The notes beneath the pieces are model-generated. The model was not told the DNA's origin. It saw nothing but the letters and a program-made list of their open reading frames with translations, and made no database searches. A stretch of DNA of 64,000 bases from Flavobacteriales bacterium (lineage in GTDB: Bacteria > Bacteroidota > Bacteroidia > Flavobacteriales_F > PHOS-HE28), in contig JAHBUK010000003.1 of NCBI GenBank assembly GCA_019638115.1, positions 186,001 to 250,000 of the forward strand, in the 5' to 3' direction. Positions 4,956 to 9,782 of this stretch are shown here, piece after piece (positions within the stretch are counted from its first letter, which is position 1; each line of letters opens with the position of its first letter). The position numbers and the translations under genes are program-made.

Positions 4956-5501
4956 TTATCCCTGCTTGGCGAGTTGCACTTCCGCTTGGATGCGCACCTC
5001 ATCGCTCACCAGCACGCCGCCGGTCTCCAGCGCTGCGTTCCAGGTGAGGCCGAATTCCTTGCGGTCCAGTTTGCCGCTCAGGTTCAGGCCGGCCTTGGTG
5101 TTGCCCCAGGGGTCCTTCGCCTGGCCGCTCCACTCCACATCCAGCGTCACGGGCTTGGTCACGTCCTTGATGGTGAGGTCGCCCGTCACCTTCCAGTTGC
5201 TGCCGCTCCCCTCGATGCGCGTGCTCCTGAAGCTCATCTTCGGGAACTTCTCGCTGTCGAAGAAGTCGCCGCTGCGCAGGTGGGCGTCGCGCTTTTCGTC
5301 GTTGGTGAAGATGCTGGCGGTGTTCGCCCAGAAGCTCACCTGGGCGTTGGTCAGGTCATCGCCTTCCAATTCCACATCGGCTCCGAATTCCTTGAAGCTG
5401 CCCGTCACCGTGGTGATCATCAGGTGCTTCACCTTGAATTGGATCTCGCTGTGGCTGGGGTCGATGGCCCACTTGGTGGTCGTTGCGGTTGCTGTTTCCA
5501 T
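4956..5501 (-). CDS. YceI-family lipid-binding protein
   Basis: This is a 181-residue single-domain YceI protein, a lipocalin-like barrel that in characterised members binds polyisoprenoid lipids. Family signatures are visible in order: WAIDPSHSEIQFKVKHLMITTVTGSF near the N-terminus, DLTNAQVSFWANTASIFTNDEKRDAHLRS, FFDSEKFPKMSFRST, VTGDLTIKDVTKPVTLDVEW and DRKEFGLTWN. There is no signal peptide, so a cytoplasmic location is likely, unlike the periplasmic E. coli YceI. A terminator-like hairpin follows it. The gene is separated from the pirin gene by a block of short tandem repeats. Confidence 0.92.
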   Translation of the reverse strand: METATATTTKWAIDPSHSEIQFKVKHLMITTVTGSFKEFGADVELEGDDLTNAQVSFWANTASIFTNDEKRDAHLRSGDFFDSEKFPKMSFRSTRIEGSGSNWKVTGDLTIKDVTKPVTLDVEWSGQAKDPWGNTKAGLNLSGKLDRKEFGLTWNAALETGGVLVSDEVRIQAEVQLAKQG

Positions 5502-5546
5502 GATGGTTGGGGTTTGTCGTTGAGGTTTCAGGTTTGCGTTGTTGGG

Positions 5547-5700
5547 TGAGGAGGGTAAGGGAGGTCAGGGAAGAGAGGGAGGACAAAGAGGTGAATGGCG
5601 AATGGTCATTGGTGAATGGCAGGCCATCACGCGATGACCACCGGCGCCTTCTTCACCTCCCTTGCCTCCTTCACCCTCTTCACCTCCCTAACCCTCTTCA
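5547..5700. repeat. Compound array: 9-mers x5, 7-mers x4, spacer, inverted 9-mers x6
   Basis: Read on the plus strand, five purine-rich 9-mers (5547-5591: TGAGGAGGG, TAAGGGAGG, TCAGGGAAG, AGAGGGAGG, ACAAAGAGG) run without a gap into four 7-mers (5592-5619: TGAATGG, CGAATGG, TCATTGG, TGAATGG). A 27-base spacer follows. Then come six pyrimidine-rich 9-mers (5647-5700: consensus CCTCYYTCA), which are the inverted counterpart of the first block. The two 9-mer blocks can pair, so the whole could extrude as a long imperfect hairpin. It fills the space between the YceI start and the pirin stop. Confidence 0.8.
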
Positions 5701-5707
5701 CCAGCAT

Positions 5708-6604
5708 TCACAACTGCATCGGCACATCCTGCAGCAGGATCTCCGCGCCCTTGGGGCCTGCCTCGATGTTCAGCGAAGCGGTGTCCCACACGCCCAGCGC
5801 GTCGCGCTTGCCCAGCTGCTGACCGTTGATGGTGGCGCTGCCCTCGATCACGAAAGCATACACGCCGTTACCGTTGCGCTTCACATCGTAGGTGGTCTTC
5901 TTCGCTGCGTCGAACTGGCCGATGTGGAACCAGGCGTCCTGGTGGATCCACACGCCGGCATCGTCGGGGTTGGGCGAAAGGACCTGTTGCCACTTGTTGA
6001 TGCGGTCCTTCGGGTCCAACGTCATCTGCTGGTAGCGGGGCGTCACCTGGCGCTTGTTGGGGAAGAGCCAGATCTGCAGCGTGTTCGCATCGCGGTCGTT
6101 GTAGGGGTTGAACTCGCTGTGCAGGATGCCCGTGCCAGCGCTCATCACCTGCACATCGCCGGCGTTGATGATGCTGGTGTTGCCCATGCTGTCCTTGTGC
6201 TGCAGCGCGCCCTTCAAGGGGATCGTGATGATCTCCATGTTGTCGTGCGGGTGCGTGCCGAAGCCCTTGCCCGCCGCGATGATGTCGTCATTCATCACGC
6301 GCAGCACGCCGAAGTGCATGCGGGTGGGATCGTACCAGTTGGCGAAGCTGAAGCTGAAGTTGGCCTTCAGCCAGCCGTGGTCGGCGGTGCCGCGCTCGCT
6401 TGCGCGGTGCAGGATCATGTTGCCCATGCGTTCAGGGGGTGTTGGGGGGAGGTGATCGAAGCCTACGACCCCTCCCATCCTCCCCCGGGGGGAGGCGGGG
6501 TCGATCGGCGAAAGTTCATCGGTAAGCAGCTTGGCGGCAGCGCTGCCGGTAACAAGCATGCCGGTGCCCAGGAGGCTCTTGCGGAGGAAGTTCTTGCGGT
6601 CCAT
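5708..6604 (-). CDS. Pirin-family cupin protein with an exported-type N-terminus
   Basis: This is a 298-residue pirin. The core starts near residue 62 with MILHRASERGTADHGWLK and carries the cupin metal site in GFGTHPHDNMEIITIPLKGALQHKDSMGN and VQVMSAGTGILHSEFN, matching the His/His/His/Glu iron-site pattern of pirins. The first 60 residues are not part of the pirin fold. MDRKNFLRKSLLGTGMLV resembles a Tat-type leader with RK instead of RR, followed by a linker encoded by a palindromic repeat (6468-6503). The ATG at 6604 is preferred because the upstream extension is repeat DNA lying downstream of a strong promoter. Some pirins act as quercetinases; the function here is unknown. Confidence 0.85.
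   Translation of the reverse strand: MDRKNFLRKSLLGTGMLVTGSAAAKLLTDELSPIDPASPRGRMGGVVGFDHLPPTPPERMGNMILHRASERGTADHGWLKANFSFSFANWYDPTRMHFGVLRVMNDDIIAAGKGFGTHPHDNMEIITIPLKGALQHKDSMGNTSIINAGDVQVMSAGTGILHSEFNPYNDRDANTLQIWLFPNKRQVTPRYQQMTLDPKDRINKWQQVLSPNPDDAGVWIHQDAWFHIGQFDAAKKTTYDVKRNGNGVYAFVIEGSATINGQQLGKRDALGVWDTASLNIEAGPKGAEILLQDVPMQL
6468..6503. repeat. GC-rich palindrome inside the pirin coding sequence
   Basis: GACCCCTCC and GGCGGGGTC flank a CCTCCCCCGGGGGGAGG centre. On the coding strand it specifies DPASPRGRMGGV in the linker between leader and pirin core. The sequence looks like an interspersed palindromic repeat captured in frame. Confidence 0.55.
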
Positions 6605-6629
6605 GGGTGCTTTGGTTTTGTCACTCCGG

Positions 6630-6690
6630 GCCTCCCTGAGCATTCCCTGAGCGGAGTCGAAGGGGATCGAAGGGAGTCGAAGGGGCCGGA
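6630..6690. repeat. CCTGAGCGGAGTCGAAGG-type interspersed repeat in the pirin leader
   Basis: CCCTGAGCGGAGTCGAAGGG at 6645-6664 is preceded by another CCCTGAG and followed by further TCGAAGGG units. Sequences of this kind recur as dispersed repeats in many bacterial genomes. It lies between the pirin promoter and start, so it would be transcribed as part of a leader of about 130 bases. Confidence 0.5.
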
Positions 6691-6738
6691 GTCGCGATGA
6701 ACTAAACAGTTGCCGGTGGTCTTCGTTCGTTGACGGGG

Positions 6739-6795: not shown

Positions 6796-7037
6796 GGCGT
6801 GTCCCCGCCTTCGCTGTGTACGATAAAGAACTGGTCGGTAGTCATAGCATCTTGCCCTTCTATCAGGCTGGTGGGCGAAGGCGGGGCCGCGCCTGCCTGC
6901 CGCAGGCAGGTGCTTCGCTGTAGCGCCCTTGGCTCAGCGGGTGTGGTTGCCGCTGCGGTGGCTTCCGCTGGTCGCCTCCTCGCTGGCACCACACCAGCGC
7001 TTCGCCTACGGTCGGCTGCCGCTACGCCCGCTCACGC
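6796..7037 (+). repeat. Left arm of a large inverted repeat (partner 7537-7715)
   Basis: With the minus strand of 7537-7715 this arm shares, in order: GGGCGTGTCCCC, GGGGCCGCG, TGCT-CGCTGTAG, CTGCGGTGGCTTCC, GGTCGCCTCCTCGCTG and GGCTGCCGCTACGCCCGCT. The stretches between these blocks differ. Together with 6605-6795 (pirin leader and promoter) this accounts for the gene-free region before the SEC-C gene. Only a few of the intervening bases (about 6821-6867) carry no recognisable signal. Confidence 0.7.
6892..6910. repeat. 19-bp palindrome inserted in the left arm
   Basis: CCTGCCTGCCGCAGGCAGG is a perfect palindrome around a central C. It sits between GGGGCCGCG and TGCTTCGCTGTAG. In the right arm those two blocks are directly adjacent, so the palindrome looks like an insertion in this copy. 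Confidence 0.75.
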
Positions 7038-7536: not shown

Positions 7537-7715
7537 GCGTGAGCGGGCGTAGCGGCAGCCCGGCGCAGGAAGGGCCATGCAGCCACGTGCAGCGAGGAGG
7601 CGACCGAAGGAAGCCACCGCAGCGCCGTGGATGCAGGCCCTGACAAGTCCGGCTACAGCGGAGCACGCGGCCCCGTGCGTTGGCCTTTGCGAGCCGGGGA
7701 AGGGGACACGCCCCC
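7537..7715 (-). repeat. Right arm of the large inverted repeat (partner 6796-7037)
   Basis: Reading the minus strand gives the same ordered blocks as the left arm, without the 19-bp palindrome. It starts near GCGTGAGCGGGCGTAGCGGC and ends with GGGGACACGCCC at about 7701-7713. Together with the hairpins at 7412-7485 and the 9-mers at 7720-7764 it fills the 440 bases between the SEC-C gene and dxs. Confidence 0.7.
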
Positions 7716-7719
7716 ATGA

Positions 7720-7764
7720 CCTCCCTCACCTCTTTCACCACTCTTACCCTCTTCACTTACCTCA
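7720..7764 (+). repeat. Five 9-mers of the CCTCYTTCA family
   Basis: CCTCCCTCA, CCTCTTTCA, CCACTCTTA, CCCTCTTCA and CTTACCTCA follow without gaps. This is the same family as the arrays at 5547-5591 and 5647-5700. It directly abuts the right inverted-repeat arm and lies 40 bases before the dxs promoter. Confidence 0.7.
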
Positions 7765-7803
7765 CCCGCATTTCCCCGACAGCCCCGTGAACCCCACGCC
7801 CGT

Positions 7804-7841: not shown

Positions 7842-9782
7842 ATGAGCGCCCCCACCTACCCCCTGCTGGAAGGCATCCAGCTGCCCGCCGACCTGCGCGC
7901 GCTGCCCGAGGAGCAGTTGCAGCAGGTATGCACCGAGCTGCGCGATTTCATCATCGACGTGGTGAGCGTGAAGGGCGGCCACTTCGGCGCCAGCCTGGGC
8001 GTGGTGGAGCTGACCGTGGCGCTGCACTACGTGTTCAACACGCCCTACGACCAGCTGGTGTGGGACGTGGGGCACCAGGCCTACGGGCACAAGATCCTCA
8101 CCGGCCGGCGCGAGGTGTTCCACACCAACCGCATCTACAAGGGCCTCAGCGGATTCCCCAAGCGCAGCGAGAGCGAGTACGACACCTTCGGCGTGGGGCA
8201 CAGCAGCACCAGCATCGGCGGGGCGCTGGGCATGGCGGTGGCCAGCAAGCTGAAGGGCGAGGCCGAGCGCCAGTGCGTGGCCATCATCGGCGATGGGGCC
8301 ATGACGGCCGGCCAGGCCTTTGAGGCGCTGAACCACGCGGGCGGCGCCGGCACCGACATGCTGGTGGTGCTCAACGACAACTGCATGAGCATCGACCCCA
8401 ACGTGGGGGCGCTGAAGGAGTACCTGACGGACATCGCCACCAGCCACACCTACAACAAGGTGAAGGACGAGGTGTGGAACCTGCTGGGCAAGATGAGCAA
8501 GTTCGGGCCCAACGCGCAGGCCGTGGTGCAGAAGGTGGAGAACGCCGTGAAGGGCGCGCTGCTGAAGCAGAGCAACCTGTTCGAGAGCCTCAACTTCCGC
8601 TACTTCGGTCCGGTGGACGGCCACGATGTGGACCACCTGGTGAAGGTGCTGCGCGACCTGCGCGATATCCCCGGTCCGAAGATCCTGCACACCATCACCA
8701 AGAAGGGCAAGGGCTACGCACCGGCCGAGGCGGGCAGCCCCACCGTGTGGCACGCGCCCGGCCTCTTCAACAAGGAGACCGGCGAGATCATCAAGGTGGT
8801 GCCCAAGAGCCCGCAGCCACCGAAGTACCAGGACGTCTTCGGCCACAGCATCGTGGAGCTGGCCGAGAAGAACCCGAAGATCGTGGGGGTGACGCCCGCC
8901 ATGCCCACGGGCTGCTCGCTGAACATCATGATGAAGGCCATGCCCGACCGCGCCTTCGACGTGGGCATCGCCGAGCAGCATGCGGTGACCTTCAGCGCCG
9001 GCATGGCCACGCAGGGCATGGTGCCGTTCTGCAACATCTACAGCTCCTTCATGCAGCGCGCCTACGACCAGGTGGTACACGATGTGGCGCTGCAGAACCT
9101 GAACGTGGTGTTCTGCCTGGACCGCGGCGGCCTGGCCGGTGCCGACGGCCCCACGCACCACGGCAACTTCGACTTCGCCTACTTCCGCTGCATCCCCAAC
9201 ATGGTGGTGAGCGCGCCGATGAACGAGGAGGAGCTGCGCGACCTGATGTACACGGCCCAGCTGCCGGACCAGGGTCCCTTCAGCATCCGCTATCCGCGCG
9301 GCGAAGGCGTAATGACCGAGTGGAAGACGCCCTTCAAGGCCATCAAGGTGGGCACGGGCCGCAAGCTGCGCTCAGGCACGGACATCGCGGTGTTGAGCAT
9401 CGGCCACATCGGCAACCTCGCCGCCAAAGGAATCAACGCCCTCGAAGCCGAAGGCTACAGCGTGGCGCACTACGACATGCGTTTCGTGAAGCCGATCGAC
9501 GAGCTGCTGCTGCACGAGGTGTTCAGCAAGTTCAAGCACGTGATCACCGTGGAGGACCATGGCCTGCACGGCGGCATGGGCAGCGCGGTGCTGGAGTTCA
9601 TGGGCGACCACGGCTACGCCGCGCAGGTGAAGCGCCTGGCGATCCCGGACAAGTTCATCGAGCATGGTACGCAGCCGGAGCTTTATCGGGAGTGCGGGAT
9701 CGATGATGTGGCTGTTGTTGAAGCGGTGAAGGAGATGTTGGGGGAGAAGGGGGTGAAGAAGGGGGTGCGGGTGAGCGCGTAG
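7842..9782 (+). CDS. dxs: 1-deoxy-D-xylulose-5-phosphate synthase
   Basis: This thiamine-diphosphate enzyme condenses pyruvate with glyceraldehyde 3-phosphate, the first step of the MEP isoprenoid pathway. The 646 residues match the family length. Visible signatures are HFGASLGVVELTVALH and WDVGHQAYGHKILTGR (N-terminal substrate region), GDGAMTAGQAFEALNHAG followed by VVLNDNCMSIDPNVG (ThDP/Mg site), and GIAEQHAVTFSAGMA in the second transketolase-like domain. DRGGLAGADGPTHHG and PIDELLLHE lie further along. The ATG at 7842 (MSAPTYPLL) lies 30 bases after a TACCTTTG element; the longer frame would start inside the leader. The gene stands alone, with the zeta-toxin-like gene 9 bases downstream. 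Confidence 0.96.
   Translation: MSAPTYPLLEGIQLPADLRALPEEQLQQVCTELRDFIIDVVSVKGGHFGASLGVVELTVALHYVFNTPYDQLVWDVGHQAYGHKILTGRREVFHTNRIYKGLSGFPKRSESEYDTFGVGHSSTSIGGALGMAVASKLKGEAERQCVAIIGDGAMTAGQAFEALNHAGGAGTDMLVVLNDNCMSIDPNVGALKEYLTDIATSHTYNKVKDEVWNLLGKMSKFGPNAQAVVQKVENAVKGALLKQSNLFESLNFRYFGPVDGHDVDHLVKVLRDLRDIPGPKILHTITKKGKGYAPAEAGSPTVWHAPGLFNKETGEIIKVVPKSPQPPKYQDVFGHSIVELAEKNPKIVGVTPAMPTGCSLNIMMKAMPDRAFDVGIAEQHAVTFSAGMATQGMVPFCNIYSSFMQRAYDQVVHDVALQNLNVVFCLDRGGLAGADGPTHHGNFDFAYFRCIPNMVVSAPMNEEELRDLMYTAQLPDQGPFSIRYPRGEGVMTEWKTPFKAIKVGTGRKLRSGTDIAVLSIGHIGNLAAKGINALEAEGYSVAHYDMRFVKPIDELLLHEVFSKFKHVITVEDHGLHGGMGSAVLEFMGDHGYAAQVKRLAIPDKFIEHGTQPELYRECGIDDVAVVEAVKEMLGEKGVKKGVRVSA

Follow-up and report, generated by a model that had tools for sequence, protein, structure and literature searches.

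The window analysed here is a stretch of 64,000 nucleotides (G000:C3:186001-250000) and is part of a 4.06-Mb genome. A repeat block occupies window positions 5545-5702 between a pirin-like and a yceI-like gene; about 5 nt separate the stop of the pirin-like gene from the start of this element, and the yceI-like gene starts 43 nt downstream of its end. The block is built of tandem arrays in which the arms of a nonamer family, B, lie around an arm of a heptamer family, A (Table 1). The initial annotation had described a 9-base period that changes to a 7-base period and is closed by inverted 9-mers; lag identities, shuffles and arm complementarity bear out this mixed 7/9 inverted array, whose coordinates had been placed accurately to a few bases. 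Lag-9 and lag-7 periodicities were above those of shuffles at P 0.006 or below, the P values for the three segments in Table 1 being derived from 5000 dinucleotide shuffles with any lag from 5 to 12. For the slightly longer stretch 5650-5702, identity rose to 0.77 at lag 18 and to 0.85 at lag 27.

Table 1. Repeat arms of the window element and the neighbouring genes (window coordinates)
Feature	Position	Strand	Basis
YceI-like gene	4956..5501	-	ORF and coding score; family name read from sequence
Family B arm, outer left, purine strand	5545..5595	+	9-nt GGTGARGGA-like units; lag-9 identity 0.69, P<0.0002
Family A arm, heptamer array GGTGAATGGCGAATGGTCATTGGTGAATGG	5590..5620	+	lag-7 identity 0.71, P<0.0002
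Degenerate inverted A-arm partner GCCATCACGCGATGACCA, hairpin tip	5623..5640	-	72% complementary to 5603-5620; paired in minimum-energy fold
Family B arm, outer right, inverted, pyrimidine	5652..5702	-	9-nt TTCACCTCC-like units; lag-9 identity 0.62, P 0.006
Pirin-like gene	5708..6643	-	ORF and coding score; family name read from sequence

The outer 9-mer arms (5545-5595 and 5652-5702) are 75% complementary over 51 nt, and the block is predicted to fold into a hairpin of about 160 nt at -103.7 kcal/mol, compared with -63.5 kcal/mol for shuffles (z of -9.7 and -8.6 on the two strands). Given this strong predicted fold, a structured transcript, one of the roles proposed initially, is plausible; for a protein scaffold, another such proposal, no support was found. 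An Rfam scan of the window matched no family, and this copy is without an ORF of the PF05635 family. The B unit includes GGAGGTGA, the complete Shine-Dalgarno complement to the 3' tail of 16S rRNA, which may be coincidence. Other repeats of the window are one family B arm by itself upstream of a dxs-like gene (7709-7766), a B-like array at 9725-9767 (AVKEMLGEKGVKKGVRVSA) that supplies the final codons of this gene, a repeat with CCCTGAGCGGAGTCGAAGGG at 6618-6700 that recurs at C3:182621 (83% over 53 nt), and a palindrome GCCTGCCTGCCGCAGGCAGG at 6860-6920 with two partial copies near C3:100100.

Sequences that match the window's A arm fully or almost fully occur at other places in this genome and in genomes of the same genus. 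Genome-wide, the A pattern (heptamer GGTGAAT) was matched 144 times and its reversed control 3 times, and the B pattern (nonamer GGTGARGGA) 188 times against 31, so that these units, whose single occurrence would have spoken against the initial annotation, are present in dozens of copies. A profile scan covered 800 kb of contig C3 and 23 targeted stretches, and counts outside C3 are biased towards A and B because the stretches there were targeted; in this sample the purine arm came first in 41 of 41 two-armed clusters. With a simple gene caller of our own, 52 clusters were placed: 35 in codirectional gaps, 5 in convergent gaps, 5 in divergent gaps and 7 within one reading frame. Since 244 of the 385 gaps of at least 40 nt on C3 are codirectional, the excess of clusters over this baseline is modest. 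Intergenic clusters span the gap, often with ends within about 20 nt of both neighbouring genes. Single-armed arrays are also present (for example at C2:396588), and a second B-A mosaic lies at C4:239962-240074. In-frame A elements were found in dnaE (C7:12362-12463), two adenylate-cyclase genes and one glycosyltransferase-like gene, and B arms inside mfd and a methyltransferase-like gene, all names being read from sequence. An inner motif, GGGAAATRCC, had been noticed by eye in several A loops and was dropped as proof of common descent after a systematic loop test, in which it occurred in 3 of 21 loops versus 4.6% of random 45-mers and was not clearly enriched. An exact-pattern scan of genome contigs, in which records of the window's genome itself and of its nearest kin may be missing, gave matches only in Flavobacteriales/Bacteroidota MAGs. 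TGAATGG-type arrays were found in 28 of 172 sampled genera, and several of them form inverted pairs; at two mismatches, the reversed pattern gave a few matches as well. In G384, of another genus, one locus (L134-L136) carries long inverted arrays in which the heptamers CGTGAGA and GTGAATG are mixed.

Orthologous sites in related genomes differ in their occupation. Among the readable orthologous pirin-yceI gaps, the window element is present only in G000. The gaps of G015 and G007 are short and empty, that of G025 (L231) carries a different inverted octamer array of GGGTGTCA units, and those of G008, G019, G026 and G034 (L227, L230, L226 and L232) carry unrelated GCATCATGATGC-type palindromes; therefore this site was filled repeatedly by different inserts. 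At dnaE, the A insert is found in G000, G010, G008 and G024 and in shortened form in G028, and six genomes (G002, G004, G020, G037, G041 and G018) have a 25-26-residue linker without insert. Comparison of occupied with empty orthologous sites identifies the A and B elements as inserted DNA. The slippage hotspot that the initial annotation had also envisaged, taken as a one-off, is contradicted by the dispersed two-armed copies with fixed arm order and by the absence of the element from the relatives' orthologous site. In mfd (C1:509080-509316; orthologues L285-L313), purine arrays occupy the first variable loop and pyrimidine arrays the second, sometimes only one of the two. Conserved host codons separate the two B arms here, and in G029 only the downstream array is present, indicating that arms can arise separately.

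A family search of the genome found 11 genes of PF05635, the 23S rRNA-intervening-sequence protein (IVP/S23) family; three assignments were confirmed by hmmscan, with the solved homologue 2GSC at E 2e-21. All 11 are flanked by tandem arrays of 7-9 nt, usually inverted and each with its own unit: family B 9-mers at C3:109182 and C4:4215, TGAATGG (which is family A), the heptamers ACTAACG, TGTCCAC, TGGCTAC, GTGGCGA, TGCTGAT and TCAAGCT, and the 8-mers GATGTGGG and CATGTGCC. At C1:936724-937284, a complete PF05635 gene is enclosed by A arms. When arrays within 450 nt of the gene were compared between the 11 IVP genes and 604 control genes, a lag identity of at least 0.55 on both flanks was reached by 8 of 11 versus 15 of 604 (P 1.6e-10), and one of at least 0.7 on either flank by 9 of 11 versus 28 of 604. 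At two loci (L159 and L161), the arrays on the two sides are in direct, not inverted, orientation. Gene-less inverted pairs of the ACTAACG, GTGGCGA and CATGTGCC units occur at C3:59011, 510977, 562918 and 783300; for the families of L156 and L160, no gene-less copies were found in the 800 kb examined.

The gene-carrying form can be delimited between sdhA and sdhB. Six species (G000, G027, G024, G010, G008 and G022) have an IVP unit of about 543-562 bp at this site. A-arm sequence (GTGAATGG) opens the unit right at the sdhA stop, and its inverted counterpart (CCATTCACC or a variant) closes it ahead of sdhB. In about eight other species, sdhA and sdhB overlap (TGATGGG...) and there is no insert. 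The IVP-A reading frame has a dN/dS of 0.05-0.11 at larger distances, indicative of purifying selection, and in the predicted fold of the G027 unit the 5' arm pairs with the 3' arm at 26 of 37 positions. No target-site duplication was seen at sdhA-sdhB, where the empty sites come from diverged species. In about ten same-genus genomes (for example L256-L258), the gap holds a GTAG-tagged palindrome, GTAGCGTCGACCC..GGGTCGAC; this palindrome is also present at C3:56333 and 495613 and resembles the GTAG class of REPs.

Members of PF05635 were found in 299 of the 396 genomes sampled. Arm complementarity was examined at 40 IVP loci from many genera, 11 in this genome and 29 in others. Upstream and downstream flanks of the same locus had a mean complementarity rank of 0.93 versus 0.50 when permuted (0 of 20000 permutations), and far flanks, as a control, had a mean rank of 0.585 (P 0.03). 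A permutation of score means gave P 0.04, a weak result that is probably due to a few very long or composition-biased arms; the rank-based test, which is the version used, and the far-flank control were devised after it. A lag identity of 0.7 was reached in the near flanks of 18 of 41 loci versus the far flanks of 4 of 41. Array similarity correlated with IVP protein similarity (Mantel r 0.59, P<0.0005; r 0.49 outside this genome) in a set in which 1 of the 40 proteins (L156) was read in the wrong frame, and this correlation is no proof of coevolution because shared descent contributes to it. In a literature search that covered mainly open-access journal articles, no description of IVP genes flanked by tandem arrays was found.

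The inserts are thus dispersed and two-armed, their arms follow a fixed order, the IVP unit is exactly bounded by A arms, and the association of IVP genes with arrays extends through the genome and the phylum. IVP genes probably belong to inverted-array insertion elements, of which the window block would be a gene-less composite copy with B arms enclosing an A arm. The repeat types that bracket these genes suggest a kind of mobile element, so far little recognised, that is spread across Bacteroidota. More tentatively, this could be a new class that consists of a single IVP/S23 four-helix-bundle gene between inverted arrays of 7-9 nt, with lineage-specific recognition of the unit and gene-less hairpin satellites. 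A full element would comprise an arm, the IVP gene and an inverted arm, A and B being such terminal inverted arrays, and the array unit, of 7, 8 or 9 nt, would be particular to each IVP lineage. IVP may be the element's own mobility or maintenance factor, which would recognise the array multivalently, either as DNA or as a hairpin in RNA, and promote its spread. Gene-less copies, reduced to the arms and a short loop, would derive from full elements as MITEs do from their parents, and unit number and sequence would shift through slippage. The window copy would then have arisen by insertion of an A element into a B element or by fusion of the two. No transposition event was seen, and no catalytic activity is known for IVP.

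That units vary in number and sequence, that the mfd arms are separated by host sequence with one arm alone in G029, and that heptamer arrays outnumber every other short tandem class in most surveyed bacterial genomes (PMC4679880) would also fit an origin in which replication slippage expands arrays in tolerant gaps, template switching supplies their inverted partners, and IVP genes come in as passengers that land or are tolerated there. We consider this unlikely in view of the invariable purine-first order, the locus-specific complementarity of arms across IVP genes, the exact bounding of the sdhA-sdhB unit by A arms and the near-identical A arms at unrelated loci. Slippage alone is insufficient because it leaves the dispersal, the fixed inverted order and the link to IVP genes unexplained. 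Unit number probably changes by slippage inside arms, and the split arms of mfd, the failure to see a target duplication and the failed loop motif leave room for an origin of some arms by slippage combined with template switching.

It is rather improbable that the elements are host-useful intergenic RNA hairpins, such as terminators, mRNA stabilisers or RNase III sites, under selection at gene ends. They fold strongly and fill intergenic gaps that are mostly codirectional (35 of 45 intergenic clusters), and RNase III is known to cut rRNA IVS hairpins (PMC4990558), but copies also lie in frame within coding genes and orthologous sites are empty or occupied by a different family; the terminator reading was rejected after a search for a T-run hairpin at the window element found none. 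Movement of REP/REPIN-type elements by a TnpA-REP/RAYT (Y1 HUH) transposase would suit short, palindromic, intergenic and numerous copies and the four Y1_Tnp matches of the genome, yet it is very improbable, since no clear A or B arms were seen at the flanks of any of the four Y1 genes (three of them, L071, L073 and L074, being judged on flanks without a resolved Y1 reading frame; one A element, C3:351585-351658, lies at a distance of about 1 kb from one gene), the elements of both families inspected by eye have tandem-array arms and no GTAG/CGTC tag, and the arrays go with IVP genes instead.

S23/IVP genes are common, but their proteins have no known function; these data link them to a repeat-bounded insertion unit outside rRNA, and the old idea of the IVS ORF as a mobility component becomes directly testable. 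If true, the insertion-element reading would explain many so far unexplained intergenic heptamer arrays in Bacteroidota as well as the in-frame inserts of dnaE and mfd, and perhaps the 23S_rRNA_IVP genes noted in cas loci (PMC3936711). Under the more tentative reading of a new class, IVP would be the mobility factor that rRNA intervening sequences carry as well, and such elements would be common across Bacteroidota.

Among known systems, TAACTGA heptamer repeats form intergenic tandem arrays in Beggiatoaceae, Cyanobacteria and some Bacteroidetes (PMC4679880). The elements described here share intergenic tandem heptamers with cyanobacterial STRR, but STRR are direct arrays, whereas inverted pairs in fixed order with 7-, 8- or 9-nt units and a link to IVP are found here. 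Rickettsia palindromic elements and MITEs are small palindromic inserts, some of them in frame in genes; occupied and empty orthologous sites are a MITE-like trait of the present elements (dnaE and pirin-yceI, and sdhA-sdhB for the gene-carrying form), although their termini are of array type and neither transposase ends nor target duplications were seen. REP/REPIN-RAYT systems comprise intergenic and sometimes intragenic palindromes, including some in replication and repair genes (PMC3733652). Both these systems and the present elements combine a protein-coding partner with numerous small palindromic satellites, but here the partner is the IVP four-helix bundle rather than a Y1 transposase, and the arms are tandem arrays without a GTAG/CGTC tag. 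The nearest kind is the IVS of 23S rRNA, with which the elements share a PF05635 ORF in full-length forms and complementary stem-closing ends, and ORF-less IVS forms exist in Salmonella. In Coxiella and Leptospira, the S23 ORF lies in a unit with complementary stem-forming ends that has been called selfish, and the ORF was proposed to have been a mobility component (PMC4990558); a solved IVP relative is a toroidal homopentamer of four-helix bundles (PMC4990558; 2GSC). In contrast to the location in rRNA that defines these sequences, the sites read here are intergenic or in protein genes, the ends are tandem 7-9-nt arrays with units that vary between loci, and copies without the gene are scattered over the genome.
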